Below are positions 30,127 to 46,040 of a stretch of 53,012 nucleotides of DNA, in pieces; the stretch's first letter is position 1; the number at the start of each line of letters is the position of its first letter. This stretch comes from Rhodoluna sp. Lineage in GTDB: Bacteria; Actinomycetota; Actinomycetes; Actinomycetales; Microbacteriaceae. The position numbers were made by a program, and so were the translations under genes. The notes beneath the pieces are model-generated. The model had not been told where the DNA came from. It saw nothing but the letters and a program-made list of their open reading frames with translations, and did not search any database. Location of the stretch: positions 1-53,012 of the forward strand of contig NZ_JAHEIM010000006.1 in the NCBI RefSeq assembly GCF_024639375.1, read 5' to 3'.

Positions 30127-30177
30127 TGTTGCCAAAGTTTGGCAAGTGTAAACAAGGTCGATGAGGACGGGAGCAAA

Positions 30178-30998: not shown

Positions 30999-31910
30999 TT
31001 AGCGTAGGCGTGCTGCGTGCGTGCAGCTCATAATGTGCTTAAGAGTACGATCGGCAATCGGGCCAGGAACATCAACGCCACAGCCATACATGTCTTGTTC
31101 AACGATGGCGAACATCTCTGGATTAATCTCAGCAGCTTTTTCAATGATCGGCGCAAATTCCGGCACACCTTCGAAACCAGGTTCGGTCATAACACCAGCA
31201 GCAACAGCATCTACGAACGGCAGATCGTTCTTCAAGGTGTCAGCCAGAATGTCGGGGTGAACCTGCTTGAGGTGCAGGTATCCGATGCGCTCTGGATAAG
31301 CATTCATTAGCTTCACGTTGTCGCCTAGGTAATAGGCAAAGTGACCGGTGTCGAGGCAAAGGTTGGTGAACTCTTTGTTTGTTTCTTGCAGGAATCTTTC
31401 CACTTCGGCATAGGTGCCAATGTGGCTATCTGCGTGCGAGTGGAATTGCTGGTGAATGCCATACTCTTCAAGCAAAGCCTTGCCAAGCTTGTCGTGACCG
31501 GCGGCCAGTTTTTTCCACTGGTCATTGTCGAGCACACGAGACTCAAGGACCTCTGCGGTTGCGTCTGAGCGCCATAGGTCTGGAATCACTACTAAATGTT
31601 CTACGCCAAGCTTCGAAACTAAGCCAGCCACATCTAGGGCCTGATCCCAAGCTCGCTTCCATTGGTCATCACCCTTATGAAAACCGGTGAATACAGTTCC
31701 AGCAGAAAGCTTCAGGTCGTGCTCTGCCAATACATCGGAAAGTTGGTTCGGATCAGTTGGCAAGTAGCCGAAAGGGCCAAGTTCAATCCAGTGGTATCCA
31801 GCAGCCTGAACCTCATCTAAAAAGCGCTCCCATGGAACCTGCTTTGGGTCATTTGGAAACCATACGCCCCATGAATCCGGTGCTGTACCAACACGAATTT
31901 GATTGCTCAT
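30999..31910 (-). CDS. iolE: IolE-like inosose dehydratase / sugar phosphate isomerase-epimerase
   Basis: A 303-residue TIM-barrel protein of the AP endonuclease 2/xylose isomerase-like family. VGTAPDSWGVWFPNDP at residues 6-21 and ELGPFGYLPTDP near 43 mark the actinobacterial inositol-linked branch. Metal-site residues are suggested by HQQFHSHADSHIG, CLDTGHFAYY, LHLKQVHPD and IVEQDMYG. The likely reaction is dehydration of 2-keto-myo-inositol to the trihydroxycyclohexanedione used by IolD. An isomerase role is the alternative. It has its own operator-like site upstream, separate from the main iol operon. Confidence 0.68.
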   Translation of the reverse strand: MSNQIRVGTAPDSWGVWFPNDPKQVPWERFLDEVQAAGYHWIELGPFGYLPTDPNQLSDVLAEHDLKLSAGTVFTGFHKGDDQWKRAWDQALDVAGLVSKLGVEHLVVIPDLWRSDATAEVLESRVLDNDQWKKLAAGHDKLGKALLEEYGIHQQFHSHADSHIGTYAEVERFLQETNKEFTNLCLDTGHFAYYLGDNVKLMNAYPERIGYLHLKQVHPDILADTLKNDLPFVDAVAAGVMTEPGFEGVPEFAPIIEKAAEINPEMFAIVEQDMYGCGVDVPGPIADRTLKHIMSCTHAARLR

Positions 31911-31976
31911 CTTGCCCTAACTCGCCATTGAGGCAAATCTATTTACGTGCTTCAATCTAGTCCAAATTAAATCAAA

Positions 31977-31994
31977 TGTAATGACATAAGGACA
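31977..31994 (-). promoter_or_regulatory. Putative inositol-regulon operator before the iolE-like gene
   Basis: On the minus strand the site is TGTCCTTATGTCATTACA, 67 bases upstream of the iolE-like ATG. It aligns with the sites at 30071, 30109 and 41066. Two TGTC half-sites lie eight bases apart. Confidence 0.5.
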
Positions 31995-32022
31995 TTCTTA
32001 AATAACGATTTGGAGTGCCGGC

Positions 32023-32042
32023 GCTTTCGCTCAAACGAAAGC
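32023..32042 (-). repeat. Inverted repeat at the lacI stop codon
   Basis: GCTTTCG (32023-32029) and CGAAAGC (32036-32042) are perfect arms around a six-base loop, touching the lacI stop. No T tract follows on the minus strand, so it may be a weak 3' hairpin protecting the lacI mRNA or part of a control site for the next gene. Confidence 0.4.
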
Positions 32043-33070
32043 TAAATATTGGCTCGAGGCTTACCTGTCGTGGAACGAATTACAAGCTTTGAGCTGGTCA
32101 GATAGGTCTCTGATAGAAGTTTTTCGCCTCGAATTCGAGCAGCTAGATCTTCCACCGCCGCCTGCGCCAATTCTGCTGCGTCTTGTCGAACAGTCGTCAG
32201 GTTTAGAAATGGCCATTTCGCAATGGTGTCGTCATAGCCAATCACAGAAATGTCGCGAGGCACCGAAATGCCATTTTTTTGAAGCTCATGAACGAGCCCG
32301 AATGCCATTTGGTCATTGCTGCAAATAACTGCAGTGGGTTTGACTTTCAAAGCCAGCAACCGATCTGCGGCAGTGGCGCCACCAACCTCTGTGTAGTTGC
32401 CAGATATTTGCATGACATGGGTTTTTAACTTTGCCTTGGCCATCGCCGCACTGTAGCCCTCTAGGCGAAATTCGTGGTCGTACATTTCTGATCCGTCTAC
32501 ATACGTAATCGACTTGTGCCCAAGATGGACCAAATACTCAACCGCTTCAAACATTCCGGCTTCTCCGCGCGATGAAACAAAACCGCAACGCACTTTAGTT
32601 AGCCTTCGACCCATGCTCACCAAAGGCATTTCTTGAGCCAGTTTTTGAATTTTCGAAAGGCTCAAGCCGCTCGACATCAAGATGATTCCATCACAGCGAT
32701 GGCCCAACACTTCTTCAATTGCCTCTACTTCCGAGCGAGCTTCTGAAACCGCGCTTAGGATGACCTGAAATCCAAATTTCGAAGCTTGGCGATACACCTC
32801 AGGTATTAATTCATTTATCGAGCTGTGGTCGGTGTGAAAGACAACACCAATGTATTTTGAACCCTCACGGCGCAGGGCTTGTGCCGCCAAATTCGGCCGA
32901 TACCCTAGTTCTTTTGCTGCAGCACGAATCTTTGCTTCTGTCTCTGCGCCAACGCCAGGAGCGCCACGAAAAACTAGTCCAACAAGTTGTCTTGAGACAC
33001 CAACGGCCGCAGCAATGTCTGCCATGGTTGGCGGGCGCGGAGTACCGCTGTCTTTGGTATTGATGGCCAT
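32042..33070 (-). CDS. LacI family transcriptional regulator
   Basis: A 342-residue LacI/GalR repressor. The helix-turn-helix starts at about residue 15 (TMADIAAAVGVSRQLVGLVFRG), the hinge helix is PNLAAQALR, and the periplasmic-binding-like domain runs from about 72 (IGVVFHTD) to the end, with the family motif VPRDISVIGYDD. AGGA lies upstream of the ATG. It sits between iolH and the iolE-like gene, so a sugar or polyol inducer is likely. Two regulators of different families in one inositol locus is notable; this one might instead act on the P450 palindromes, whose central CG suits LacI proteins. Confidence 0.9.
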   Translation of the reverse strand: MAINTKDSGTPRPPTMADIAAAVGVSRQLVGLVFRGAPGVGAETEAKIRAAAKELGYRPNLAAQALRREGSKYIGVVFHTDHSSINELIPEVYRQASKFGFQVILSAVSEARSEVEAIEEVLGHRCDGIILMSSGLSLSKIQKLAQEMPLVSMGRRLTKVRCGFVSSRGEAGMFEAVEYLVHLGHKSITYVDGSEMYDHEFRLEGYSAAMAKAKLKTHVMQISGNYTEVGGATAADRLLALKVKPTAVICSNDQMAFGLVHELQKNGISVPRDISVIGYDDTIAKWPFLNLTTVRQDAAELAQAAVEDLAARIRGEKLLSETYLTSSKLVIRSTTGKPRANI

Positions 33071-33130: not shown

Positions 33131-34006
33131 CTACTTGTGCTTGGCCACAAGCTGCTCAATAGCTTCGCGCTGGAAGATTGAGACTTCGCGAGCGTTTTCG
33201 TTTTCGGCAAAAACGCTTGAGCACATGATGCTGTTTGGGTTGTCAAGGAACCCATTGGCCTTGAGGCCTTTGAACATTTCATCGAAGTTGACGTCACCAG
33301 CGCCGATGCGCAAGTGCTGATGTACGCGCACAGCGTTGCCCGGCGGGTTGGTGATGTAGCGCAATCCATGCGAAGCGGTGTGGTCCATGGTGTCACTCAT
33401 GTGCACAATGCCCACGCGGTCTTTTGCTACCTCAAGAATTTGAGCCGGCTGATTGCCCATGTGGAATGTGTGCGAAGCCACATAAACCATGCCGAAATTC
33501 TTTGAGTTGATGCCGCGGATGACACGCCAAGCAGCAACGCCGTTTTCTACAAAGTCATCTGGGTGCGGATCGATAAAGACCTTGATGCCTTCCTTTTCGA
33601 TGATTGGCACAAGCTCTTCCATCGAGCGATAGAACGCGCGCTCTGACTCTTCGGCTCGCTCTGGGCGACCATTGAACTCGGTACCAATGGTGTCAACGCC
33701 CAAGTCTGCGGTGATTTGAATCACACGCTTCCAATAGCGCACTGCAGCTTCACGTGCGTCTTCGTCTGGACCCGACCAACGCAGCACCGGCAAGGTCGAT
33801 GCAATCTCGATGCCTGCATCCTTAACGGCCTTCTTCAACTTCTTCACCAGGTCGTCATCGCCCTTTGGGTGATTGAAGAACGGAATCAAATCCGCGTGCG
33901 GAGTCATCTGCAGATACTTGTAGCCAAGGTCTGCCGCCAGCGCCGGAAACTCAAGAAGTGAGTGAGTGCTGTGGAACGGGGTTGGATCAAGTGCGATTTT
34001 TACCAT
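33131..34006 (-). CDS. iolH: Inositol catabolism protein IolH (TIM-barrel isomerase family)
   Basis: A 291-residue xylose isomerase-like TIM-barrel protein. The N-terminus (KIALDPTPFHSTHSLLEFP, then QMTPHADLIPFFNHP) and the block LPVLRWSGPDEDAREAAVRYWKR match the IolH branch of actinobacterial inositol clusters. Likely metal ligands lie in DPHPDDFVENG, YVASHTFHMG and HMSDTMDH. The exact reaction of IolH is not firmly established. AAGGGAG precedes the ATG. It is the last gene of the main operon. Confidence 0.72.
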   Translation of the reverse strand: MVKIALDPTPFHSTHSLLEFPALAADLGYKYLQMTPHADLIPFFNHPKGDDDLVKKLKKAVKDAGIEIASTLPVLRWSGPDEDAREAAVRYWKRVIQITADLGVDTIGTEFNGRPERAEESERAFYRSMEELVPIIEKEGIKVFIDPHPDDFVENGVAAWRVIRGINSKNFGMVYVASHTFHMGNQPAQILEVAKDRVGIVHMSDTMDHTASHGLRYITNPPGNAVRVHQHLRIGAGDVNFDEMFKGLKANGFLDNPNSIMCSSVFAENENAREVSIFQREAIEQLVAKHK

Positions 34007-34038
34007 TTCTTACTCCCTTGTAATTATTGAATCAAATG

Positions 34039-34815
34039 TTAAACAGTAAATGCGTTGCGGAATTCGGTGAGGGCCTCGTGTGAGTTGCCAGTGGCAAATG
34101 CTTCCATTGCAACAACACCTCGGTAGTTCAGGTGCTTCAATTCTTTAGCGATGCGTGGGTAGAAAATTTCACCGCTTCCAGGTTGCGCGCGACCAGGCAC
34201 GTCTGCAACCTGAATCTCGCCAATCCAGTCAAAACACTTTGCAACTAACTCGGTTAGATTTCCCTCGCCAATCTGCGCGTGATACAGGTCAAGATTTAGC
34301 CGAAGGTTTGGGTGGTCTACTCGCTGCACTAATTCAAGGGTGTCTGCAGCCTTAGCGAATGGTACGCCTGGGTGATCAACCGCATTATTTAGATTCTCAA
34401 GCGTGAAAACGCGATTGTGCTTTGCAGCCAAGTCAGCCATGCGAGTCAGCGTGTCAACTGCCTTAACCCAGTCGGCATCTATAACTGAATAGGTTGGCTT
34501 CACTGGCAAACCGCCTTCACCCAAACCTGTGCCGTGCAGGTTGAGCCGAGGTGAGTCAATTACTTTGGCTTGCTCTAGCGAAAGTGCCGCGGTTTCTAGC
34601 AAACGGCTTGCGCCATCCTCGGTGATTAGGTCGCCCTCAAGGTAACCAGTCATAGATGAGAAAGTTGCGCCGGTTGCCGCTAATGCAGGCAAGTCTTTAT
34701 TTGACCAGTCCCAGATTTCAACCAAAAAACCGGCGGCAGAAATCTCTTTCACACGGTCGACGAATGGCAGGTCCTGAAAAATCATTTCGGCACAGGCCGC
34801 GAGATTGTATGTCAT
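34039..34815 (-). CDS. Hydroxypyruvate isomerase-like TIM-barrel protein (possible inosose isomerase)
   Basis: A 258-residue TIM-barrel protein. The start MTYNLAACAEMIFQDLPF and internal FTLENLNNAVDHPGVPF, LNLDLYHAQIGEGNL and IQVADVPGRAQPGSGEI are hallmarks of the Hyi/OtnI family, where a Glu and His pair with Asp and Gln at the metal site. In inositol clusters such proteins may act as 2-keto-myo-inositol isomerase (IolI) or as the dehydratase. The ATG shares one base with the iolD stop (TAATG). The fold is certain; the reaction is inferred. Confidence 0.65.
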   Translation of the reverse strand: MTYNLAACAEMIFQDLPFVDRVKEISAAGFLVEIWDWSNKDLPALAATGATFSSMTGYLEGDLITEDGASRLLETAALSLEQAKVIDSPRLNLHGTGLGEGGLPVKPTYSVIDADWVKAVDTLTRMADLAAKHNRVFTLENLNNAVDHPGVPFAKAADTLELVQRVDHPNLRLNLDLYHAQIGEGNLTELVAKCFDWIGEIQVADVPGRAQPGSGEIFYPRIAKELKHLNYRGVVAMEAFATGNSHEALTEFRNAFTV

Positions 34816-36740
34816 TAGTGCTTGCGCTCCACTGCTCCGCGGCCCAAAAGTGCCTTCTGTTTCTTCTGCGCCTCGACATAGCCAACATAGGCCTGCTTGG
34901 TTGAGTCGAGTTCAGAAACAGGCATCACCGGTACGTCCCACCAACCTTCGCCGTCTGGCGCATAAATCAACGGGTCATTGTTGATGTGAATTAGCACTGG
35001 GCCACCAACGTACTCCTTTGCCTGCTTCATCGCAGCCTTTAAATCTGAAATTGAATTTGGCCCAGGCTCAACACGAATCACCTTCACGCCATAGCTTTCA
35101 GCATTGGCAGCGAGGTCGATTGGCAGAATATCGCCGGTTTCGTGGTTGTTGCCTGCCTCATCGCGGTAGCGATATTTAGTGCCATAACGCTGAGAACCAA
35201 CATCTTCGGATAGGTGGCCGATAGAAGCGTAGCCGTGGTTTTGAATCAAAACAGTGATGAACTTTAGGCGTTCGGCAACTGCGGTGACTAATTCGGAGTG
35301 CATCATCAAGTAAGAACCATCACCAACCATCACAATGGCGTCGCGAGTTTTATCTGCACGAGCAACACCAAGTCCAGCAGCGATTTCGTAGCCCATGCAT
35401 GAGAATGCATATTCAACGTGGTAGCCGAGGTCGTCGCGCACTCGCCACAACTTGTGCAAGTCGCCAGGCAAAGAGCCGGCAGCACAAATTACCACGTCGC
35501 GAGCATCTGAAGACTGCTGAACTGCTCCGATGATTTCTGGTTGACCCGGAAGTTCGCGGCGCTGGTCTTCAAATGAAGCGTCAACTGCCTCGTCCCAAAT
35601 TTTCTTTTCATTTGTGTACTTGGCAACGAAGTCGCTTGCAACGGTGTAGCCCAAGAGTTCTTCGGTTAGTTCAACCAATGATTCGCGAGCATCGGCAACA
35701 ACTGGCAATGCCGAGCCGTGCTTGAATGCATCGAATGAAGCAATGTTGATGTTGATGAACTTCACATTTGGATTCTGGAATGCAGTGCGGCTCGCGGTTG
35801 TGAAGTCACTGTAGCGAGTGCCGATACCGATAATCACATCAGCCTCAGCAGCGATGCGGTTTGCTGAGGTTGTGCCAGTGGCTCCAATAGCACCTAGGTT
35901 TTGTGGGTGGTCCCATACCAATGAACCAACGCCAGCCTGTGACATTCCAACTGGAATTCCAGTAGCTTCAACAAAATTACGAAGCTCAGCATTTGCGTCA
36001 GAGTAAATGACACCGCCACCGGCAACAATCATCGGGTTCTTGGCGTTTCGAATTACCTTGGCAACAGCATCGATGATTCCACGGTCTGGGCGAGGTCGGC
36101 GCACGTGCCATTCGCGGTCAGCCAAAAATTCTTCTGGAACATCGATGTATTCAGCCTGAACGTCTTCTGGCAAGGCAATAGTGACCGCACCGGTCTCAAC
36201 CGGGTCGGTAAGAACGCGCATTGCACCAAGCAGTGCAGAGAATATTTGCTCTGGTCGAGTCACTCGATCAAAGAATCGTGACAACGGCTTGAAAGCATCG
36301 TTCACGGTCATGCTTGAATCGTGCGGCTGTTCCAACTGCTGCAACACAGGGTCGGCAACACGGTTAGCAAAAGTGTCTGATGGCAACAGCAATACTGGCA
36401 AACGGTTGGTGGTTGCAACCGCAGCTGCGGTCAAAAGGTTTGCAGCACCCGGGCCAACCGAGGCAGCACAGGCATAGGTTGAACGTCGTCGCGTCATGCG
36501 CGAGAAAGCAATAGACGCGTGGCCCATAGCCTGCTCATTGCGAGCCTGGTGATAAGGCATCCGCTGCGGGTCAGCAACTGAAAGCTGCTTTAGCGCTTGA
36601 CCGATGCCGGCAACGTTGCCGTGGCCAAAAATGCCATAAAAGCCCTCAATTGTGCGCACTCGGATGTCGCCATCGACGGTGTACTGGTGTGCCAGGAATT
36701 CAACGATTGCCTGGCTTACTGACATTCTGCGAGTAGCCAT
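34815..36740 (-). CDS. iolD: 3D-(3,5/4)-trihydroxycyclohexane-1,2-dione acylhydrolase
   Basis: A 641-residue thiamine diphosphate enzyme that opens the cyclohexanedione ring to 5-deoxyglucuronate. The family-specific N-terminus (RTIEGFYGIFGHGNVAGIGQAL) carries the ThDP glutamate region, the central domain includes PMIVAGGGVIYSDA, and the cofactor motif GDGSYLMMHSELVTA with downstream IQNHGYASIGHLS lies near residue 490-525. The length is usual for IolD. It follows iolB by 24 bases in the catabolic operon. Confidence 0.95.
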   Translation of the reverse strand: MATRRMSVSQAIVEFLAHQYTVDGDIRVRTIEGFYGIFGHGNVAGIGQALKQLSVADPQRMPYHQARNEQAMGHASIAFSRMTRRRSTYACAASVGPGAANLLTAAAVATTNRLPVLLLPSDTFANRVADPVLQQLEQPHDSSMTVNDAFKPLSRFFDRVTRPEQIFSALLGAMRVLTDPVETGAVTIALPEDVQAEYIDVPEEFLADREWHVRRPRPDRGIIDAVAKVIRNAKNPMIVAGGGVIYSDANAELRNFVEATGIPVGMSQAGVGSLVWDHPQNLGAIGATGTTSANRIAAEADVIIGIGTRYSDFTTASRTAFQNPNVKFININIASFDAFKHGSALPVVADARESLVELTEELLGYTVASDFVAKYTNEKKIWDEAVDASFEDQRRELPGQPEIIGAVQQSSDARDVVICAAGSLPGDLHKLWRVRDDLGYHVEYAFSCMGYEIAAGLGVARADKTRDAIVMVGDGSYLMMHSELVTAVAERLKFITVLIQNHGYASIGHLSEDVGSQRYGTKYRYRDEAGNNHETGDILPIDLAANAESYGVKVIRVEPGPNSISDLKAAMKQAKEYVGGPVLIHINNDPLIYAPDGEGWWDVPVMPVSELDSTKQAYVGYVEAQKKQKALLGRGAVERKH

Positions 36741-36764
36741 GGTTTTACTTTCTTTGCAGTTTGG

Positions 36765-37664
36765 TTATGCGGTGTAAGGAAGTCTTGGGTCTGGATCTTT
36801 GTGGCGCCAGGTTTCGCGAATCCACGCGTAGTTCGGATCATCGGTGATATTCCAGGTGCGCTCTGGGTCAGGCCCAGCCATAACATTTAAGAAATAGAGG
36901 TCGGCACCAGGAGTTGCCATTACCGGCCCGTGCCAACCATAAGGAATCAATCCGACGTCACCGCTTCGCACTTCTTCGGTGATATCTATTGGGCGATCAT
37001 CCGAAGCGTATGCGCGCAAGAAACCGGTTGGGTCGCTGTTGACCGGGTTGCCTAGACCACGCGAGACCGCTGTTTCGAAGTAGTAAATTTCTTCGAGGTT
37101 TGATTCAACCCCTGGGATAAATGTGTCGTGTTTGTGTGGTGGCATACCAGACCAGTTGCCCGATGGCACGATCACTTCAACCACAATGAAACGGTCAGCG
37201 TCTAGCGCTTCTGCCCCACCGATGTCGTAGACCTGTCGAGTTTCGTGACCAGCGCCGCGCACCACAACCGGGCAGTCTTCGGCAGCTTGAAAGCGAACCG
37301 GTTTCTTGTTCTTAGCTGGAGCTTCCGAAATGATTACACGTCCGGTGCCTTCGATTTTGATTTCGGTGGCTACTGGCAAATAGATGTTGTCGGCTGGGCC
37401 GTGAAAAACCGATTCGCGCCCGCGCAGCTGTGCACTGGCAAAGTGATCTTCGCCCTCAAGGCGATAATCAACCTTGAACCCTTCACCCTCAAGCGGAGTG
37501 ATTAGGCGTTCAACGCCATCCGCCGGAATATGAAGGTGTTGACCGACATGCAAGGTTCCAACGCGCACCCCAGTGTGTTGCCACCCTGGAATTGAAGCAT
37601 CAACAAGAACGTCCCAATTGTCTTGGGCCAATTCTCCTGCGCGAAAGAACCACTGCATCGTCAT
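36765..37664 (-). CDS. iolB: 5-deoxy-glucuronate isomerase
   Basis: A 299-residue bicupin enzyme converting 5-deoxyglucuronate to 2-deoxy-5-keto-gluconate. Typical features are the metal-binding PPHKHDT, EEIYYFET and PYGWHGPVMATPG, followed by YFLNVMAGPDPERTW. The start is placed at ATG 37664, 13 bases after the mmsA stop; ATG two codons later is equally possible and a longer frame upstream runs into mmsA. Confidence 0.94.
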   Translation of the reverse strand: MTMQWFFRAGELAQDNWDVLVDASIPGWQHTGVRVGTLHVGQHLHIPADGVERLITPLEGEGFKVDYRLEGEDHFASAQLRGRESVFHGPADNIYLPVATEIKIEGTGRVIISEAPAKNKKPVRFQAAEDCPVVVRGAGHETRQVYDIGGAEALDADRFIVVEVIVPSGNWSGMPPHKHDTFIPGVESNLEEIYYFETAVSRGLGNPVNSDPTGFLRAYASDDRPIDITEEVRSGDVGLIPYGWHGPVMATPGADLYFLNVMAGPDPERTWNITDDPNYAWIRETWRHKDPDPRLPYTA

Positions 37665-37677
37665 TTGTTTCTTGGTA

Positions 37678-39174
37678 CTAGTTCTGTGGGAAGCCCAGGT
37701 TGATTCCACCGTGGCTTGGGTCTAGCCAACGAGAAGTCATGGTCTTCTCGCGAGTGAAGAACTTTACGCCTTCAACACCGTGAGCCTTGGTGTCACCGAA
37801 CGCTGACTCCTTCCAACCACCGAATGAGAAGTAAGCCACTGGAACTGGGATAGGAACGTTGATGCCAACCATGCCAACTTCGATTTCGTTCTGGAAGCGA
37901 CGTGCGGCTCCACCATCATTTGTAAAGATTGCAGTTCCGTTTCCGTAGGCACCGTTGTTGATCAGAGCAACACCTTCGTCGTAGCTCTTCACGCGAACGA
38001 CGTTTAGCACAGGGCCAAAGATCTCGTCGATGTAAGCCTTTGAAGTTAGTGGAACGTTGTCGATCAGGGTTGGGCCAAGCCAGAAACCATCAGCTGCGCC
38101 GTCGAACTCCTGCTTACGACCATCAACGATGATGCGGCCGCCGTCTTTCTCTGCGATTTCAATGTAGCCAGCAACCTTGTCGCGGTGCTCCTTGGTAACC
38201 AATGGGCCCATGTCGCAGTTGCGACGGCCGTCACCGGTGACCAACTTGCCCATGCGCTCTACGATTTTTGCAATCAGGTCATCAGCCACTGGCTCAACAG
38301 CAACAGCAACTGAGATTGCCATGCAACGCTCACCGGCAGAACCGAAGCCTGCGTTGATCATTGAGTCGGCAACTAGGTCTAGGTCAGCGTCTGGCAAGAT
38401 CAACGCGTGGTTCTTCGCGCCACCAAGTGCCTGAACGCGCTTGCCGTGCTTTGAACCTTCTTCGTAGATGTACTTGGCAACAGGTGTTGAACCTACGAAA
38501 GAGATTGCCTTGATGCGCTCGTCTTCAAGCATTGACTGTACGGTCTTACGGTTACCGTTTAGCACGTTGAATACGCCGTCAGGAAGACCAGCTTCCTTCC
38601 AGAGACGAGCCATCCAAAGAGTTGCACTTGGCACCTTTTCAGAAGGCTTGATAACAACTGTGTTGCCGGCGGCAATAGCGATTGGGTAGAACCACATTGG
38701 AACCATCGCCGGGAAGTTGAACGGAGCAATTACGCCAACTACACCTAGTGCCTGGCGAATTGAGTAAACGTCAACACCGGTTGACGCATTTTCGCTGAAC
38801 ATGCCCTTTAGAAGGTGAGGCATGCCACAAGCAAACTCAACAACTTCTTGACCGCGAGTAACTTCGCCAAGTGCGTCGGCAAGAACCTTGCCGTGCTCTT
38901 CGGTGATTAGTTCGGCACACTCGTGCTTGCGCTCGTTGACAAGTTCACGGAACTTGAAAAGGATGGCCTGCTTGCGAGCCTGTGACATGTCCCGCCACTT
39001 TGGGAACGCTGCCTGTGCGCTTGCAAAAGCTGCTTCAATTTCCTCGTCGCCGGCTACGTTAACCTGCTTGGTGGCAATACCAAGAGCCGGGTCGGTAACC
39101 AATGCAACGTGGTCGGGCTTGCCTGGTACCTCTTGACCGTTAATCCAGTGCGGAACTACAGGTAGGTTGCTCAT
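37678..39174 (-). CDS. mmsA: CoA-acylating methylmalonate-semialdehyde dehydrogenase
   Basis: A 498-residue aldehyde dehydrogenase that forms acetyl-CoA or propionyl-CoA from malonate or methylmalonate semialdehyde, the last inositol step (IolA). The catalytic Cys is in GSAGERCMAIS, and NAD-binding FVGSTPVAKYIYE and the family-typical VPIPVPVAYFSFGGWKESAFGD are present. AAAGGA stands upstream of the ATG. Valine degradation is an alternative use, but the neighbours point to inositol. Confidence 0.94.
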   Translation of the reverse strand: MSNLPVVPHWINGQEVPGKPDHVALVTDPALGIATKQVNVAGDEEIEAAFASAQAAFPKWRDMSQARKQAILFKFRELVNERKHECAELITEEHGKVLADALGEVTRGQEVVEFACGMPHLLKGMFSENASTGVDVYSIRQALGVVGVIAPFNFPAMVPMWFYPIAIAAGNTVVIKPSEKVPSATLWMARLWKEAGLPDGVFNVLNGNRKTVQSMLEDERIKAISFVGSTPVAKYIYEEGSKHGKRVQALGGAKNHALILPDADLDLVADSMINAGFGSAGERCMAISVAVAVEPVADDLIAKIVERMGKLVTGDGRRNCDMGPLVTKEHRDKVAGYIEIAEKDGGRIIVDGRKQEFDGAADGFWLGPTLIDNVPLTSKAYIDEIFGPVLNVVRVKSYDEGVALINNGAYGNGTAIFTNDGGAARRFQNEIEVGMVGINVPIPVPVAYFSFGGWKESAFGDTKAHGVEGVKFFTREKTMTSRWLDPSHGGINLGFPQN

Positions 39175-39191
39175 TTAATTTCCTTTTCTTG

Positions 39192-40067
39192 TTAACCGTG
39201 TACTAGTTTTACGGCGGTGTCGATTGCGACGGCGACGTTGCCGTCTTGTGGGTAAAGAAGACTGCGACCTACAACTAGGCCTCGAACTCCTGGCAACTCA
39301 AGGGCGCGTCCCCATGAGTCATAGATTTCCTTTGGATCACCAACTGGGTCACCGCCGAGTAGCAACGTTGGCAACGTGGTTGATTCCATCACGCGTGCCA
39401 TGTTTTCTACAACTGGCAACTTCATCCAGGTGTAAGCAGATGAATTGCCAAGTGCGCTTGCGATGCTTATTGAGTCAATCACTGCATCGGTTGAAAGGTC
39501 GTTGCGAATCTTGCCGTTGACCCATTCGCTCATGAACGGCTCAAGCATGATTGGCAACTTTGCGGCTGCAGCTTGGCTAACCGCGTTGTGTGAATACTCA
39601 AGCATGTTTGAAGTGCCGGCATCACCGAGGTTTACACGGTTTAGCATCTTGGCAAAGTCAAGACCGTCACGCACGATTCCGTTGATGTCATAGCCAGTGA
39701 TGCGGTCGTCCATTTCGAAGGATGCACCGCGAAGACCACCGCGGTTTAGTGAACCAACCACGAGCTTGCCCTCAAGGCAACCAAGCAAAGCTAGATCGTC
39801 GATGATGTCTGGGGTGCCAAGCACGCCGTCTACGCCGGGGCGAGACAACGCGGTAGCCAAACGCTCGATCAAGTCGTAGCGGTTTTCCATAGCGCGTGCG
39901 TTGTCGCGCACTGAAAGTGCATTGCGAGCTGGGTGATCGGCGGCAATGATGAATAAACGTCCATCGCCCTGAACCACATTTCGACGGCTACGCGCTGAAT
40001 AAATCTCAGCAAGTTTTTCTGGGTGAGCAGCGCGGTCTTCGCGAAGCTTTGCAAAATCCAAAGTCAT
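39192..40067 (-). CDS. Class I aldolase, DeoC/LacD-like (candidate 5-dehydro-2-deoxyphosphogluconate aldolase)
   Basis: A 291-residue protein of the deoxyribose-phosphate aldolase-like superfamily found at this place in actinobacterial inositol clusters. Segments such as FIIAADHPARNALS, SLNRGGLRGASFEMDDRITGYD and TTLPTLLLGGDPVGDP suit a (beta/alpha)8 aldolase; a lysine in YTWMKLPV is the best Schiff-base candidate. Between iolC and mmsA the missing step is cleavage of 2-deoxy-5-keto-gluconate-6-phosphate, so it probably does the work of IolJ. The ATG overlaps the iolC stop by one base. Confidence 0.72.
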   Translation of the reverse strand: MTLDFAKLREDRAAHPEKLAEIYSARSRRNVVQGDGRLFIIAADHPARNALSVRDNARAMENRYDLIERLATALSRPGVDGVLGTPDIIDDLALLGCLEGKLVVGSLNRGGLRGASFEMDDRITGYDINGIVRDGLDFAKMLNRVNLGDAGTSNMLEYSHNAVSQAAAAKLPIMLEPFMSEWVNGKIRNDLSTDAVIDSISIASALGNSSAYTWMKLPVVENMARVMESTTLPTLLLGGDPVGDPKEIYDSWGRALELPGVRGLVVGRSLLYPQDGNVAVAIDTAVKLVHG

Positions 40068-41023
40068 TACTTCATTCCCTTCAGGATATCTTCAACCTCT
40101 TCGAAGGTTGGCATTGCAGTAGAACATTCCAAACGGCTGGCAACAATCGCACCTGCAACGTTTGCAAAACGCAAGATGCGCTCTAGTTCCCAACCTTGCA
40201 ACAAGCCGTAGCAGAATGCGCCTCCAAAGCTGTCGCCGGCGCCGAGGCCATTTACAACATCAACAAAATAAGGAGGAACTTCAACGGTCTGTTCGCGAGT
40301 CTTAGCAAGCACTCCCTTAGGACCCTGCTTCACAACTGCAATTTCAAGACCGCGCTCAAGCAGCGCATCGGCGGCACGCATTGGTTCGGTTTCACCAACA
40401 GCAACCTGGCACTCTTCTTTATTGCCAATTGCAATAGTCACCTTTGAAAGCGCCTTAGCCACCTGCTCGCTTGCTAGCTCTGGCGTTGACCAGAACATCG
40501 GGCGGTAGTCAAGGTCCAGAATGGTGTGTTCCTTGCGGCCGCGAGCATCCCAAGCAACGTGGTGTGCTGTGCGAGACGGCTCTTGGCTTAGGCCAGTCAC
40601 GGTTGACCAATAAATCTTTGCCTGAGAAATTGCATCGAGGTCAAGTTCGTTTTGGTTGATGACCAGATCTGGAGCCTTTGGTTCGCGGTAGAAGTAAAGC
40701 GGAAAGTCATCCGGTGGAAAAATCTCACAGAAGACAACCGGAGTCGGCAGACCTTCAACTCCAGAAACGAATTCGTCGCTAACACCGAGACGCACTAGCT
40801 CTTCGTGTATGTACTTGCCGAATGGGTCATTGCCTGTGCGAGTGATTACCGCTGACTTCAAGCCGTATTTAGCAGCCGCAACCGCAACGTTGGTTGCACT
40901 TCCGCCAAGAAACTTGCCAAAGCTGGTGACGTCTTCAAGACCAACGCCAATTTGCTGAGGATAAATGTCAACGCCGACGCGGCCAATGGTGATTACGTCG
41001 AATGGTTTGCTTCGCTCGGTCAT
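40067..41023 (-). CDS. iolC: 5-dehydro-2-deoxygluconokinase
   Basis: A 318-residue PfkB-family kinase phosphorylating 2-deoxy-5-keto-gluconate. The N-terminus VITIGRVGVDIYPQQ with FGKFLGGSATNVAVAAAKYG is the IolC signature; the catalytic Asp is in NGLGAGDSFGGAFCYGLL. It is the first gene of the operon iolC-aldolase-mmsA-iolB-iolD-hyi-like-iolH. An operator-like site lies 43 bases upstream of the start. GGAG directly before the ATG leaves unusually short RBS spacing. Confidence 0.93.
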   Translation of the reverse strand: MTERSKPFDVITIGRVGVDIYPQQIGVGLEDVTSFGKFLGGSATNVAVAAAKYGLKSAVITRTGNDPFGKYIHEELVRLGVSDEFVSGVEGLPTPVVFCEIFPPDDFPLYFYREPKAPDLVINQNELDLDAISQAKIYWSTVTGLSQEPSRTAHHVAWDARGRKEHTILDLDYRPMFWSTPELASEQVAKALSKVTIAIGNKEECQVAVGETEPMRAADALLERGLEIAVVKQGPKGVLAKTREQTVEVPPYFVDVVNGLGAGDSFGGAFCYGLLQGWELERILRFANVAGAIVASRLECSTAMPTFEEVEDILKGMK

Positions 41024-41083: not shown

Positions 41084-41144
41084 TTTGTGCCCTCGCGGGG
41101 ACAAATCTCAGAAAAAGCCTAAATCCGATTCCAAACCGTTATTT

Positions 41145-41588
41145 TCAGTGGCTAGCTAGCAACTCCTGCGACCAAGCCACTGCTGACGCATTAGGCAATG
41201 TGCCGGTGTCGGCATCGTGGCGACCATAGTCGCCAACCCGCTTTGCGCCCAGATCTCGCAGCTTTTCGTCGATGCGCTCACTGCCCTTGCTGTAGTTCTC
41301 ATAGCTGCTGTCGCCTAGGCCAAAAATACCAAATTCAACCCCAGATAGGTCTGGAGTATCAGCTTCAAGGGCCCCATAAAATGGCACTGCCCCACTAGGA
41401 AGATCGCCCTCACCGTGTGTCGAGCAAATGATGATGTAGAAGTTATCCGAAGTAAAGTCGGCTATATCAAAGTCAGTCATGTCGACAACCTCGGAATCGC
41501 GACCGTCAATCTCTGCAGCGATGTCTTCGGCGGCGAATTCTGCGTTGCCTGACTCAGTACCAAAAAGGATCACTACTTTTTTGCTCAT
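41145..41588 (-). CDS. Flavodoxin (cindoxin-like P450 electron donor)
   Basis: A 147-residue FMN protein. The phosphate loop is GTESGNAE (10-17); the ring-binding loops are STHGEGDLPSG and FGLGDSSYENYSKG. The C-terminal VGDYGRHDADTG resembles cindoxin, the flavodoxin that feeds P450cin, from memory. It begins two bases after the reductase gene and is surely co-transcribed with it. Together they would pass electrons from NAD(P)H to the divergent P450, a flavodoxin taking the place of the usual ferredoxin. Confidence 0.85.
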   Translation of the reverse strand: MSKKVVILFGTESGNAEFAAEDIAAEIDGRDSEVVDMTDFDIADFTSDNFYIIICSTHGEGDLPSGAVPFYGALEADTPDLSGVEFGIFGLGDSSYENYSKGSERIDEKLRDLGAKRVGDYGRHDADTGTLPNASAVAWSQELLASH

Positions 41589-41590
41589 GG

Positions 41591-42709
41591 TTAAACAGTT
41601 ACTTTCTCTAGTTGGTTGTTTTCAAAATCTTCGATGATCGCTTCGCTCACCATTTTTGCATCGGCACGGTTTGCAGGTATTGTGCCTCGGGGTCCGCGCC
41701 GTAGCCACCCCACGCAGTAAAGACCCTGAGCAAGTCGCCCAGTCTCAAGGTCAGTTATCTCACTGATGTGTGCGTCACGCTTAACCGCTGCTGCTTCTGC
41801 CTCGGTGAAGCCAATCGCGGTGTAAATTGCGTCGGCTGGCAAAGCTTTTCGCTCCCCCGTGTGCTTGGCGGTAAATATCGCCTCGGATACGTGCTGCTCG
41901 CCATTTATTTCAGAAGGCACCCACCCAAAGTGAAAATTGACGACTCGACCCGCCGTGACTGGCGAGTTATCTACCAACGTATTAATGGCGTCAATGCGCT
42001 TTTGAGTTTCAGGGTCGCCCTCTTCGCCCAGAATTGGTGCATCTGATGTGAATCGCACATCTGCAATCTTGCCCAACTCTTTCACCATGGCAACATCAAA
42101 CTTTGCGTCGGAAATTTCAGACCGGCCAACAACATCAATTTGCTTCAACATGCTGTGAGCAATCAAATCAGCCACTTCGCGATCAACGCCCACACCAGCA
42201 AGTTCCTCAGGATGAGTCAGACTCAAACGAATCAAGTCCATCGCAACATTTCCCTGGCCTACAATCACTACTCGCTCTCCCAATTGAATACCTTCGAGTG
42301 ATTCGTCGGGGTGACCATTTATCAGGCGGGTGATTCGACCTGAACCATAAACCCCATTTTTCTCTTCCCCAGGAATTCCAAGTTGGCGATCTGCGCTTAA
42401 GCCGGTAGCCAAGACCACAACATCAAATTCAGCGCGCAGCTCTTCAAGGCTTTTATCTTTTCCTACTTCAATACTGCCCACGAACTTCACGCCGTCTCGT
42501 TCAAAAAGGCGATCGAATTGTTGGGTCACCGCTTTTGTGCCTGCGTGATCTGGAGCAACACCGAATCGAACCAAACCGTAAGGCATGGGCAATCGATCAA
42601 AGATCGTGATTTGGGCGTCGGGGAACCGCTTGCGCAGGAACTGGGCTGTGTAGCAGCCAGAAGGGCCGCTACCAACAATTGCAACAGTGGGAACTTGGTT
42701 TTGCCCCAT
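41591..42709 (-). CDS. FprA/adrenodoxin reductase-type flavoprotein
   Basis: A 372-residue FAD/NADP oxidoreductase. The FAD motif is VAIVGSGPSGCYTAQFL (8-24), then FDRLPMPYGLVRFGVAPDH, typical of the adrenodoxin-reductase family, NADP-binding VVIVGQGNVAMDLIRL, and C-terminal CVGWLRRGPRGTIPANRADA. It is somewhat shorter than FprA (about 450). The ATG at 42709 has AAAGGAG seven bases upstream; an upstream in-frame extension is rejected because it crosses the promoter. It is likely the reductase for the flavodoxin-P450 chain. Confidence 0.88.
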   Translation of the reverse strand: MGQNQVPTVAIVGSGPSGCYTAQFLRKRFPDAQITIFDRLPMPYGLVRFGVAPDHAGTKAVTQQFDRLFERDGVKFVGSIEVGKDKSLEELRAEFDVVVLATGLSADRQLGIPGEEKNGVYGSGRITRLINGHPDESLEGIQLGERVVIVGQGNVAMDLIRLSLTHPEELAGVGVDREVADLIAHSMLKQIDVVGRSEISDAKFDVAMVKELGKIADVRFTSDAPILGEEGDPETQKRIDAINTLVDNSPVTAGRVVNFHFGWVPSEINGEQHVSEAIFTAKHTGERKALPADAIYTAIGFTEAEAAAVKRDAHISEITDLETGRLAQGLYCVGWLRRGPRGTIPANRADAKMVSEAIIEDFENNQLEKVTV

Positions 42710-42752
42710 CGAACTTGCTCCTTTGCAAACTTGCTCAGTTTCTTGACAAGAT

Positions 42753-42768
42753 ACTAGCACGTGCTAGT
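42753..42768. promoter_or_regulatory. Perfect 16-bp palindrome in the P450/reductase divergent promoter
   Basis: ACTAGCACGTGCTAGT is a perfect palindrome with a central CG. It lies after TTGACA (42743-42748) and overlaps TAGTGT (42765-42770) on the plus strand and TAGTAT (42756-42751) on the minus strand, so one bound repressor could shut both genes. A 14/16 copy lies before the aldo-keto reductase gene. Confidence 0.75.
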
Positions 42769-42803
42769 GTTTCTTACACAAGTTCTGAAAGCGAGTATTT
42801 GCA

Positions 42804-44195
42804 ATGAAGCAAAATGAAGATTCGACCCAACCTCAGGTTTGCCCTTACTCAGGCGCCGTGCTTCCGAGCTCGGCGAATACGCCACAAACCGAGGCAAAGC
42901 CAATTGTGATGCGCATGGATGCCGACACCGAGGAGACCACTGTAAAGGCGCCGATAGTTGAGCCGCCAGAAGGTTCAAATATTTTCTACGATCCACTTTC
43001 GTACGCAATTTACGACCACCCTTATGACGTATACAAGCAACTACGCGACAAGGCCCCGGTTTACTTCAGCCCACGCCTAGGCGTCTATGTGCTCTCGCGC
43101 TATGAGGACGTAATGGCTGCCTTTAAGAACCACGAGCACATGGTGAGCAAGTTTGGCAATGACATCGATGGCACCCACGATTCATACGGCAAGGGCAACC
43201 TAGTTGCTCAGGATCCTCCTCGCCACACCGCTTTGCGCCAAGCCGTTCGTCGCGTGTTTGCTTTGCGTGAAATTCTGGCTAAAGAAGATGGAATGCGACT
43301 TGTTGCTAAAGAGCTTCTGAATGACATGAAAAAGAATGGCGGCGGTGACTTTGCCACCGAATTTGCTTTGCCTTTAGCATTTGCCACAACAACCCGACTA
43401 ATTGGCTTGCCTGGCTCAAAAGAAGACATTAACTGGTTAGTCGACCACCTAAGCCGCTCAATGGTGCGCACCGTCGGTGAGCTGGGTGTTCCTGAAGACG
43501 CTTCGACTTCAAACTTTGAAGCTGAAGAGTACATTCACTCTGTGGTTCAAAAGCGTATGGATGAGTTGGCTGCTGGCGCTGACGCAAACGTCTCAGACGT
43601 GATCACGCAGGTGCTTGCCTCGGTAGAAAAAGGCAAGGTTGACGATGACGAAGTAGTTGGCCTCGCCCACTTGATCTACTCTGCATCAACAGATGCACCT
43701 TCAGCACTGCTAACAAACTGCGTGGCAGTCCTCGACAAATTTCCGCACCTTCAGGTATTCCTTCGAGAGAACCCATCGATGATTACCAACTTCATCGAAG
43801 AAGTACTTCGTTATGACACTCCTGGTCAAAACGTTTCGCGCCAAACAACCGCTGAACTAGTTTTTCAGGGCGTTACGATTCCTGCAAACTCTCGAGTCAT
43901 GCTGCTTCAGGGCTCGGCCAACCGCGACGAACGCGTATTCGAAAATCCGGATGAGTTTGATCTAACCCGAGACTTTTCAAAGCAAACCAAGTTGGCATCT
44001 TTCGGCGATGGAATTCACGCTTGTATGGGTGCACCGCTTGCGCGTTTGATGGCTCGTCTGGCAGTTGAAGTAATTCTTGAACAATCTGATGAGATTCGCA
44101 TCGTAGGGTTCCCAGAGCGTTGGGTGAAACAACTAGTGCGTGGATTCTCGAAGCTACCAATCAAATTTGTTGCCGGCGGAACCAACTTCGCATAG
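42804..44195 (+). CDS. Cytochrome P450
   Basis: A 463-residue soluble bacterial P450. The heme loop is FGDGIHACMGAP with the proximal Cys407; the K-helix ExxR is Glu333-Arg336 in EEVLRYDTP; the C-helix has QDPPRHTALR. The I-helix reads HLIYSASTDAPSALL where most P450s have AGxET; the usual acid-threonine pair is not in the normal order, so the oxygen-activation site is atypical. The N-terminus is about 40 residues longer than usual and contains CPYSG. Its redox partners are encoded divergently. Substrate unknown; the linked aldo-keto reductase and creatininase-like genes hint at a catabolic role. Confidence 0.93.
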   Translation: MKQNEDSTQPQVCPYSGAVLPSSANTPQTEAKPIVMRMDADTEETTVKAPIVEPPEGSNIFYDPLSYAIYDHPYDVYKQLRDKAPVYFSPRLGVYVLSRYEDVMAAFKNHEHMVSKFGNDIDGTHDSYGKGNLVAQDPPRHTALRQAVRRVFALREILAKEDGMRLVAKELLNDMKKNGGGDFATEFALPLAFATTTRLIGLPGSKEDINWLVDHLSRSMVRTVGELGVPEDASTSNFEAEEYIHSVVQKRMDELAAGADANVSDVITQVLASVEKGKVDDDEVVGLAHLIYSASTDAPSALLTNCVAVLDKFPHLQVFLRENPSMITNFIEEVLRYDTPGQNVSRQTTAELVFQGVTIPANSRVMLLQGSANRDERVFENPDEFDLTRDFSKQTKLASFGDGIHACMGAPLARLMARLAVEVILEQSDEIRIVGFPERWVKQLVRGFSKLPIKFVAGGTNFA

Positions 44196-44206
44196 TTGCG
44201 ACGTAG

Positions 44207-44245
44207 AAAAACCCCGAGTCTTTGACCCGGGGTTTTTCTTTTTTA
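44207..44245. terminator. Bidirectional terminator between P450 and creatininase-like genes
   Basis: AAAAACCCC (44207-44215) pairs with GGGGTTTTT (44229-44237), with inner GAGTC/GACCC pairing, followed by CTTTTTTT on the plus strand. On the minus strand it ends GGGGTTTTTC. It ends both convergent genes; the creatininase-like stop lies at its edge. Confidence 0.9.
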
Positions 44246-44974
44246 GCTAATTTCTGAAATCTTGGCGATTATCTTGTCGCTGATTTTCAGCACCAAACCA
44301 TTAGCGTCTTCTGGGCGATAGTTTCTTGGGTCTGGCCCAAAGACACCCCAAAGCACATGTTGCGGATCATGTCGGTGCAGACCGTAGGGGTCACCGTCTG
44401 GGTCATCTGCGGGGTGATCTTCCAGGTTTGGCAAAGCGCTGATATCTATGGTTTCAGGCTGGAATCTAGATAAAACAGTAGTTTCAAAAAAGCCGGCATG
44501 GTCGGGGCTTGGTGCATCATCCAAAGGCATGTTGATTGCTAACGGCAGCACCTTTAGTTGGCTTGCGCCCTGGTTCCAATCTGCTGCAATTGAATCGATC
44601 ATCTCTAGTTGTTCTGGCGCAAAGTGTCCGCTGAACAAGACGGCAATCTTCACTTCAAAATCGTTGAGTCGCTTCAAGGTGTTCATCAAAATTGAACGTA
44701 TTTCAGCTTCGCCATCCATCATGATGGTCCACGGATAGGTTTTGTGCCCCCCTCCGGTTCCAACATATAGCGGAGGAAGCACAACGCCACCGAACCGAGA
44801 CGCAGTGAGGCATGTGATGCCGTGTGCGTTCAACGTGTCAAGGCCAATTGGAAGATGCTCTTGGTGAAACTCAGTTGCACCAATTGGAATATAGACAACA
44901 GATTTTTTGGCAAGGGCCTCACGAATTTGACCCGGGCGCAGAACTTCTGCCTGCACATTTCTAAATTCAGTCAT
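44243..44974 (-). CDS. Creatininase family protein
   Basis: A 243-residue member of the creatininase/MftE/FAPy-hydrolase family of metal-dependent amidohydrolases. The first metal motif GATEFHQEHLPIGLD supplies Glu35, His37 and Asp46. The usual NGHGGN block is here SGHFAPEQ, and the third is DHAGFFETTVLS with a conserved Glu. The altered second block suggests a substrate different from creatinine. AAGGAG lies six bases before the ATG at 44974. It follows the aldo-keto reductase gene by ten bases as one operon. I infer hydrolysis of a lactam or amide intermediate. Confidence 0.82.
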   Translation of the reverse strand: MTEFRNVQAEVLRPGQIREALAKKSVVYIPIGATEFHQEHLPIGLDTLNAHGITCLTASRFGGVVLPPLYVGTGGGHKTYPWTIMMDGEAEIRSILMNTLKRLNDFEVKIAVLFSGHFAPEQLEMIDSIAADWNQGASQLKVLPLAINMPLDDAPSPDHAGFFETTVLSRFQPETIDISALPNLEDHPADDPDGDPYGLHRHDPQHVLWGVFGPDPRNYRPEDANGLVLKISDKIIAKISEIS

Positions 44975-44984
44975 TCGAAACTCC

Positions 44985-45977
44985 TTAGGCCGGGCTATTG
45001 ATTTTGTAGTAGTTGCGTGGCCAGTTGAACTCCGCAATTTTTTCGATTAGTTCGGCCGGAAATTCCTGACCATCCGAGTAATCAACGTTGCGGTCTACGC
45101 TTCTTGAATTGCTCATGCCTGGAATGGTGGTGGATACCTTTGGCGAGCTAAGCGAATAGCGCATTGCGGCTTCACCAAGTGATGAATAGTAAGGCTCAAC
45201 AATTTTTTTGAGCTGCTCTACTCGCTCAAATACTTTTGCAAATCGATCGCCACCAAATAGTTCTGCAGGCACTGAGCCAGGCAACCAGGTATTTGGCGTA
45301 TCTTGAGTCCACAAACCTGAGAGTGCCCCGGAATCGAGTGGCACTCTTGCAATTGCTGCAGTGCCGGTTTGCCCACATACATCGAACAAACCTTCTGTTG
45401 CAGGTCGTTGTTCAAACATATTGAAAATCACCTGCACCGATGAAACCAGGTTTAACTTTGCTGGATCAATACCTTCGTTCGGTCTGTAGTCACGAAGTGA
45501 AACACCAATTTGGTCAATTTTTCCTTCGAGACGAAGGTCGTTCAAAGTCTCTAACCAATCAAGCGAGTGCACCAGATCAGGGGCCCAGCAGTGAAGTTGC
45601 AAAAGATCTAGACGTTCAACACCTAGGCGCTGAAGCGCCGAATCAACACCCTGACGCAAATACCAACTCGGGTAACGACCGCGCATTTCAGGATTGTCGT
45701 CATCAGCATCTGGCCACTGCACAGGTTGAATCTTGGTGGCAACATAAATCTTGTTGCCAGTCCACTCTTTCAGAGAGCGACCCACCACCGATTCGCTTCG
45801 GCCACGCCCGTAGAGTTCGGCGGTGTCAACAAAGTTGATTCCCTTTTCATAGGCGTGCAAGAGAGTTTTGACGGAATCGTCGTCATTGACTTCACCCCAT
45901 GTGCCGCCAAGCTGCCAACCACCGAAAGCAATTTCGCTGACTTTCCAGCCAGTCTGCCCAAAATCTCTGTATTCCAC
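44985..45977 (-). CDS. Aldo-keto reductase
   Basis: A 330-residue NADPH-dependent oxidoreductase. The catalytic tetrad is complete: Asp51 and Tyr56 in FVDTAELYGRG, Lys82 in VATKIQP and His129 in LLQLHCW. The C-terminal part includes AAMRYSLSSPKVSTTIPGMSN. The family is close to sugar or sterol-type reductases of the YhdN/tas group. The start is GTG at 45977 with AAAGGA upstream. Its promoter carries a copy of the P450 palindrome, so it is probably in the same regulon. Confidence 0.9.
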   Translation of the reverse strand: MEYRDFGQTGWKVSEIAFGGWQLGGTWGEVNDDDSVKTLLHAYEKGINFVDTAELYGRGRSESVVGRSLKEWTGNKIYVATKIQPVQWPDADDDNPEMRGRYPSWYLRQGVDSALQRLGVERLDLLQLHCWAPDLVHSLDWLETLNDLRLEGKIDQIGVSLRDYRPNEGIDPAKLNLVSSVQVIFNMFEQRPATEGLFDVCGQTGTAAIARVPLDSGALSGLWTQDTPNTWLPGSVPAELFGGDRFAKVFERVEQLKKIVEPYYSSLGEAAMRYSLSSPKVSTTIPGMSNSRSVDRNVDYSDGQEFPAELIEKIAEFNWPRNYYKINSPA

Positions 45978-46024
45978 GATGAATAATCCTTTGCTCGCAA
46001 CATTGAGAGAAAACTTTGGATTAT

Positions 46025-46040
46025 CCTAGCACGTGCCAGT
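46025..46040. promoter_or_regulatory. Second copy of the P450-locus palindrome
   Basis: CCTAGCACGTGCCAGT matches the palindrome at 42753 in 14 of 16 bases, keeping the central core. On the minus strand it runs into TAGGAT (46028-46023), a good -10 box for the aldo-keto reductase operon, in the same geometry as at the P450 promoter. Confidence 0.68.

Follow-up and report, generated by a model that had tools for sequence, protein, structure and literature searches.

Two palindromic sites probably link a cytochrome P450 cluster in Rhodoluna sp. to a putative LacI-family regulator of an inositol locus

LacI-family transcription factors typically bind even palindromes with a central CG, as reported for 1173 of 1303 regulators (PMC4052901). 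For the dominant subgroup of this family, which has the motif TVSR behind its two specificity residues, rules of recognition have been described in which residues 15-16 read bases 5-4 and arginine 20 reads guanine 6 (PMC2978694). One LacI-type protein, IpsA of Corynebacterium glutamicum, is an activator of ino1 with myo-inositol as its effector (PMC3899939), and cytochrome P450 O-demethylases for 6-O-methyl-galactose have been reported from marine bacteria (PMC10033563). Here we describe two 16-bp sites, O1 and O2, at a P450 gene cluster in a 53,012-nucleotide stretch of Rhodoluna sp. DNA (RefSeq assembly GCF_024639375.1, contig NZ_JAHEIM010000006.1; hereafter the window), part of a 1.29-Mb assembly called G000 among the genomes compared. 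Very probably O1 and O2 are operators of the LacI-family protein encoded at 32042 in the same window, which would repress three promoters until an inducer of the cyclitol type binds.

O1 lies between the fpr-fld genes on the minus strand and the P450 gene on the plus strand, and O2 just before the minus-strand gene for an aldo/keto reductase (AKR). The first-pass annotation of the window had claimed a perfect palindrome at the first place and a 14/16 copy at the second, and both are there. O1 is an even palindrome with a central CG and the halves ACTAGCAC and GTGCTAGT. With up to three mismatches to this 16-mer the window holds two matches, O1 and O2, against an average of 0.08 in shuffled sequence, where 0 of 100 shuffles reach two. 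Sites with at most two mismatches are expected 0.007 times in the window and 0.17 times in the genome under a first-order Markov model; O1 and O2 are the only such sites genome-wide, both at promoters of the P450 cluster. At three mismatches the genome has three places (O1, O2 and C9:61536, by eye inside a helicase-like gene) where about 3.0 are expected, so that only O1 and O2 stand out. The genome scan with up to three mismatches, proposed earlier as a check, thus turned up no strong extra copies at unrelated genes. The 11-base half GCACGTGCTAG matches exactly at O1 and O2 only in the whole genome, and a half-site search allowing one mismatch (18 rows, context seen for part of them) added no further exact half-site. 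A second perfect 16-bp palindrome, TCTTTGAATTCAAAGA, lies in the window at 29154-29169, inside a Gfo/Idh gene. It is a useful chance control, and because of it a perfect 16-mer palindrome is unremarkable by itself. The 14-mer core CTAGCACGTGCTAG was not found in print in the open-licence literature searched, an earlier description elsewhere being possible.

The P450 is matched in 2 of 67 genomes of the genus including G000 (E<=1e-60) and in 9 of 398 sampled family genomes (E<=1e-80), and a scan of named genomes gave four loci: an uncultured Micrococcales bin (L007, identical to a contig of G039), two Subtercola records and one Arthrobacter. Two relatives, G039 and G269, carry a close form of the cluster, with P450s 73% and 80% identical to that of the window; in the genus of G269, 1 of 22 genomes has a P450 match (E<=1e-100). 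Both have a perfect 16-mer at the P450/fpr promoter, while anchored pairwise identity of the flanks is only 7/24 to 15/30. In G269 the AKR promoter has a perfect 16-mer too, and the genome contains no other site with at most one mismatch. In G039, whose assembly is about 92% complete, a search for AKR gave no match at E<=1e-40, and there is a single site. In both genomes lacI is the third gene of an operon fpr-fld-lacI, and the encoded proteins of the two genomes are 58% and 48% identical to the window LacI; in this arrangement lacI is probably under its own control. The statement that no regulator gene lies inside the cluster therefore holds for the window and fails for these two relatives, and the palindrome is perfect in both of the close-form relatives found, as had been asked of relatives that keep the cluster.

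The link between site and regulator extends beyond the cluster. Of 67 genus genomes, 10 encode an orthologue of the LacI at 32042 (E<=1e-60). The 16-mer with at most two mismatches is present in 8 of these 10 versus 6 of the 57 lacI-negative genomes (Fisher p=1.7e-5), and the perfect 16-mer in 5 of 10 versus 0 of 57 (p=2.6e-5), kinship being uncorrected in both tests. In the six lacI-negative genomes the site lies inside unrelated long frames in three, between frames in one and in iol or transporter promoters in two (G005 and G032, whose assemblies are incomplete). In the genus, eight genomes that lack the P450 have the motif with 0-2 mismatches beside orthologous lacI, iol or sugar-transporter genes. 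In G002, G020 and G058, where the P450 is not matched, a perfect 16-mer comes after the stop codon of lacI and before a gene for a substrate-binding protein, its sugar-ABC-type identity checked by Pfam and structure matches for G002; in G025 a 2-mismatch site comes just after lacI. In each of these four genomes the 3' end of lacI holds another, weaker copy at a distance of 68 bp (L061 10634, L062 10080, L063 10721, L064 9970), which may allow looping or cooperative binding. Between iolD and iolE, G005, G032 and G051 have site pairs spaced by 52 bp, with a further site before a sugar ABC operon, and in G052 a 2-mismatch site precedes a Gfo/Idh gene followed by lacI.

In the family sample, a site with at most one mismatch occurs in 9 of 398 genomes; a reversed-pattern control (a CGATCA-type palindrome) is not rarer in that list. 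All nine have a LacI-type gene in the neighbourhood examined: within about 150 bp in six (G002, G070, G160, G270, G314 and G332, the last frameshifted and with helix SRATV), in the same operon in two and 9.7 kb away in G000. In G314, G160 and G270, lacI is beside iolD-like (41-43%) and isomerase-like genes. At L078 9984-10043 a pair of CTAGCGCGTGCTAG-like sites lies beside a frameshifted LacI-type gene with helix SRATVG. The order sample has the perfect 16-mer in 3 of 396 genomes, G000, G757 and G761; in G757 a LacI gene with helix SRATV is about 75 bp away, and it is possible that this protein and that of L078 form a related specificity class. The G761 site (L097 1501), by eye, lies within a longer inverted repeat. 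In relatives the operator adjoins lacI or lies in the lacI operon, as in the local regulons of the LacI family. The protein at 32042 had been named as a candidate owner on the strength of the central CG; the candidate stands, on the stronger basis of orthologues beside or in one operon with the 16-mer rather than on the CG alone. The comparisons among relatives likewise bear out the earlier claim of one repressor with one regulon, and they show a small one; in G000 it appears to consist of only two sites and three promoters. Four further LacI genes found in the genome were considered as owners of O1 and O2 and set aside, since they encode helices SKSLV or STATV and share no more than 32% identity with the LacI at 32042.

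Fifteen operator-linked LacIs share the recognition helix SRQLV and belong to a single clade (support 96/97), inside which the window LacI and ten others form a tighter one (100/99); ten other LacIs compared, including the four others found in G000, have SKSLV (nine) or STATV (one). When the SRATV protein of G757 is added, the operator-linked LacIs are not one group on the tree (2 changes). At the place of TVSR the operator-linked proteins carry LVGL, LVGF, LVSL or LVSI, position 20 is occupied by L, F or I, and the half-site has T rather than G at base 6. This is in line with a class outside TVSR that still belongs to the LacI family. The pairing of helix and operator supports binding by this LacI without proving it.

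How such binding would act is suggested by the promoters. Across the three close-cluster genomes, with five sites, all eight promoter orientations read TAG[TG]NT at the operator edge and have a T two bases past the palindrome. The first-pass annotation had seen the GTGCTAG half running into the presumed -10 boxes TAGTGT, TAGTAT and TAGGAT with the same geometry at three starts. The boxes do follow the GTGC half at all three promoters. As the P450 and fpr promoters share one palindrome, their matching geometry counts as a single observation.

Several observations weigh against control by this LacI through occlusion of the -10 region. The presumed -10 boxes agree with TATAAT at only about three of six positions, and a consensus promoter scanner flagged none of the three promoters, so we keep the -10 argument as a weak one. 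At iol and transporter promoters of relatives the operator mostly lacks an overlapping TAGTNT box; because the geometry is not general, occlusion would be a reading specific to the P450 cluster. A distance of 9.7 kb separates O1 from the window lacI, which closes an iol run and has no site of its own. In two lacI-positive genomes, G001 and G061, the only site has three mismatches and lies within the 3' end of lacI, and the perfect 16-mer of G761 has no LacI gene within the 3 kb examined. The 15 SRQLV cases are not independent, since helix and site were inherited together within one clade. Finally, a LacI-type protein of Corynebacterium, IpsA, is an activator (PMC3899939).

Ownership of the sites by another regulator, such as the GntR/HutC-type product of the gene at 30139 or an unlinked protein of TetR/MarR type, is unlikely. 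Orthologues of the GntR at 30139 (77-83% identical) do occur in the iol loci of 16-mer-bearing relatives (L061-L064), and distant P450 clusters are tied to another GntR. However, G001 and G061 carry an orthologue (83-84%) without a good 16-mer, whereas in the 20-kb loci of G070, G160, G270 and G314 the 16-mer adjoins a LacI gene and GntR matches above 35% identity are absent. In G757 the 3 kb examined contain a LacI gene and an MFS-type gene, and the central-CG palindrome is itself of the LacI type.

The distant clusters also point to how the present arrangement may have arisen. Nine loci (L008-L010 and L019-L024, from eight genomes, L008 and L020 overlapping in sequence) keep fpr, fld, P450, AKR and creatininase genes. 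The Subtercola and Arthrobacter clusters among them (L008, L009, L010) have the same five genes as the window and P450s 57-58% identical to its own; they differ in having all five in one direction, a GntR gene beside fpr and no 16-mer. None of the nine loci contains the 16-mer with at most two mismatches, the nearest sites having three and lying inside Gfo/Idh genes (L009 and L023). Each has one GntR-family gene, 46-64% identical to the Arthrobacter query in the other eight; it stands beside fpr in seven of the eight matched loci, and in L019 it follows creatininase while another copy lies about 5 kb from fpr. Across whole genomes the same GntR is matched at 8e-96 to 1e-86 in G406, G073 and G452, and at 3e-11 to 6e-8 in G000, G039 and G269, the weak match of G000 being the iol-linked GntR at 30139. 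A GntR without the 16-mer in the distant clusters, together with these weak matches, leads us to suggest regulator exchange: the regulator of the P450 cluster appears to have been replaced between the close and distant forms. No shared even palindrome was seen upstream of fpr in the GntR-type clusters. By eye, TTGTCTA repeats lie between GntR and fpr (L010 6090-6380, and upstream of fpr in L008/L020), a possible GntR operator.

It is quite improbable that the LacI binds O1 and O2 as an activator or dual regulator. The behaviour of IpsA, with its inositol effector, speaks for such a role, but the eight of eight promoter orientations with TAG[TG]NT directly at the operator fit occlusion of RNA polymerase. 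That the palindrome is a chance or non-regulatory repeat can be practically dismissed: the window does hold another perfect one inside a gene, but in 3 of 3 close-form clusters the homologous promoters have the same 16-mer although its flanks have diverged, and it is linked to lacI in other genera.

We therefore return to repression by the LacI at 32042. In a LacI dimer the recognition helices (SRQLV) would contact the two half-sites and the hinge helices the central CG. Bound to O1, the dimer would cover the -10 and spacer region of both divergent promoters, P450 and fpr-fld; bound to O2, it would cover the corresponding region of the AKR-creatininase promoter, so that all three would be repressed jointly. 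Binding of a cyclitol or sugar to the domain that resembles periplasmic binding proteins would bring release, and inositol, an O-methyl-inositol or a product of either is a plausible ligand. A cyclitol is the simplest guess for the ligand because lacI ends an iol run here and adjoins iol genes in relatives. In other relatives the genes of orthologous LacIs lie by operators that precede a sugar ABC transporter and iolE- or iolG-type genes. The protein thus looks like an inositol or sugar-transport regulator by origin, with the P450 as one of several target types in the lineage, and an oxygenase appears to have been added to a control circuit of the inositol type.

Table 1. Features of the window discussed in the text; promoter boxes are presumed from sequence.
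Feature	Position	Strand	Remarks
Operator O1, ACTAGCACGTGCTAGT	42753..42768	.	0 mismatches; common to the divergent P450 (+) and fpr (-) promoters
Operator O2, CCTAGCACGTGCCAGT	46025..46040	.	2 mismatches to O1 (14/16); upstream of the AKR-creatininase operon
-35 TTGACA, P450 promoter	42743..42748	+	16 bp from presumed -10
-10 TAGTGT, P450 promoter	42765..42770	+	overlaps O1; not flagged by promoter scanner
-10 TAGTAT, fpr promoter	42751..42756	-	overlaps O1
-10 TAGGAT, AKR promoter	46023..46028	-	overlaps O2; -35 weak
Cytochrome P450, 463 aa	42804..44195	+	divergent from fpr
fpr, FprA/adrenodoxin-reductase-like NADPH reductase	41591..42709	-	start taken as ATG at 42709
fld, flavodoxin	41145..41588	-	
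Aldo/keto reductase (AKR)	44985..45977	-	GTG start
Creatininase-family protein	44243..44974	-	downstream of AKR
LacI-family regulator, 342 aa	32042..33070	-	helix VSRQLVGLVF; ends the iol run; O1 and O2 are its proposed sites
Inositol-catabolism run	33131..41023	-	upstream of lacI; iolC, aldolase-like gene, mmsA, iolB, iolD, two sugar isomerase/epimerase-like genes

The features concerned are collected in Table 1; the -35 boxes of the fpr and AKR promoters are poor. The window LacI has PF00356 (helix-turn-helix, HTH) and PF13377 (effector domain of periplasmic-binding type) above cut-off, and its gene sits among inositol-catabolism genes, as is characteristic of the IolR/IpsA type. In the run upstream of lacI, iolC, mmsA, iolB and iolD reach NCBIfam cut-offs; the gene at 39192 has no model match at E<=1e-30 and the last two genes of the run reach no cut-off. 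Downstream of lacI, iolE scores 138, below its cut-off of 290. The 16-mer is not present in the promoter of the window iol run, nor was a degenerate operator seen between lacI and iolE (31890-32070). An inverted repeat, TTTGTGCCCTCGCGGGGACAAA, lies before iolC at 41084-41105 and is a candidate site of the GntR at 30139; the same search did not recover it in 12 other loci.

For the substrate of the P450, O-methyl-cyclitols are our hypothesis. Rather doubtfully, we can picture a fuller history in which the P450, FprA/flavodoxin, AKR and creatininase-family enzyme convert methylated or differently decorated cyclitols (e.g. pinitol, ononitol) to intermediates of the inositol pathway, the module having lost its GntR and been captured by the iol LacI through 16-bp operators in a small-genome actinobacterial lineage. 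The creatininase-family protein scores 30 bits against the model of the inositol-pathway hydrolase IolN, one of the models of this family, far below the cut-off of 245. Among the open-licence papers found on pinitol and P450, none deals with bacterial cyclitol demethylation as far as titles and abstract openings tell, and the five-gene combination was not found in the open-licence literature searched.

The P450 cluster can now be treated as a defined regulon with a named candidate regulator, exact operators and a probable ligand class, which offers a direct route to the P450 substrate. It is also a clear candidate case of regulator replacement, a five-gene module tied to GntR in large-genome relatives and to LacI in small-genome ones. 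The helix SRQLV with the half-site CTAGCAC, moreover, adds a class outside the TVSR group behind the published LacI recognition code.

Set against known systems, the P450 has among its structural matches 5fyf and 8hgd, chains of the 6-O-methyl-galactose O-demethylase group; this group is not its closest structural match and shows a distant family resemblance only. The likeness to the marine enzymes is the use of a P450 in carbohydrate catabolism (PMC10033563). The partners differ: here a flavodoxin and an FprA-like reductase take this place, and AKR and creatininase-family genes are also present. The comparison serves as a lead rather than a result. IpsA and the window LacI are both LacI-type and connected with inositol, with central-CG sites and a dimer; IpsA activates ino1 and cell-envelope genes, unlike the targets proposed here (PMC3899939). 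With the LacI-family regulators of sugar catabolism, including those of IolR type, the window protein shares the LacI HTH and periplasmic-binding domain and the even palindrome with a central CG, and with the local regulators of the family the gene linkage to iol and sugar ABC genes; it differs from them in having SRQLV without TVSR and in targets that include a P450 redox cluster (PMC4052901). The switch is of an ordinary kind; its setting is unusual.

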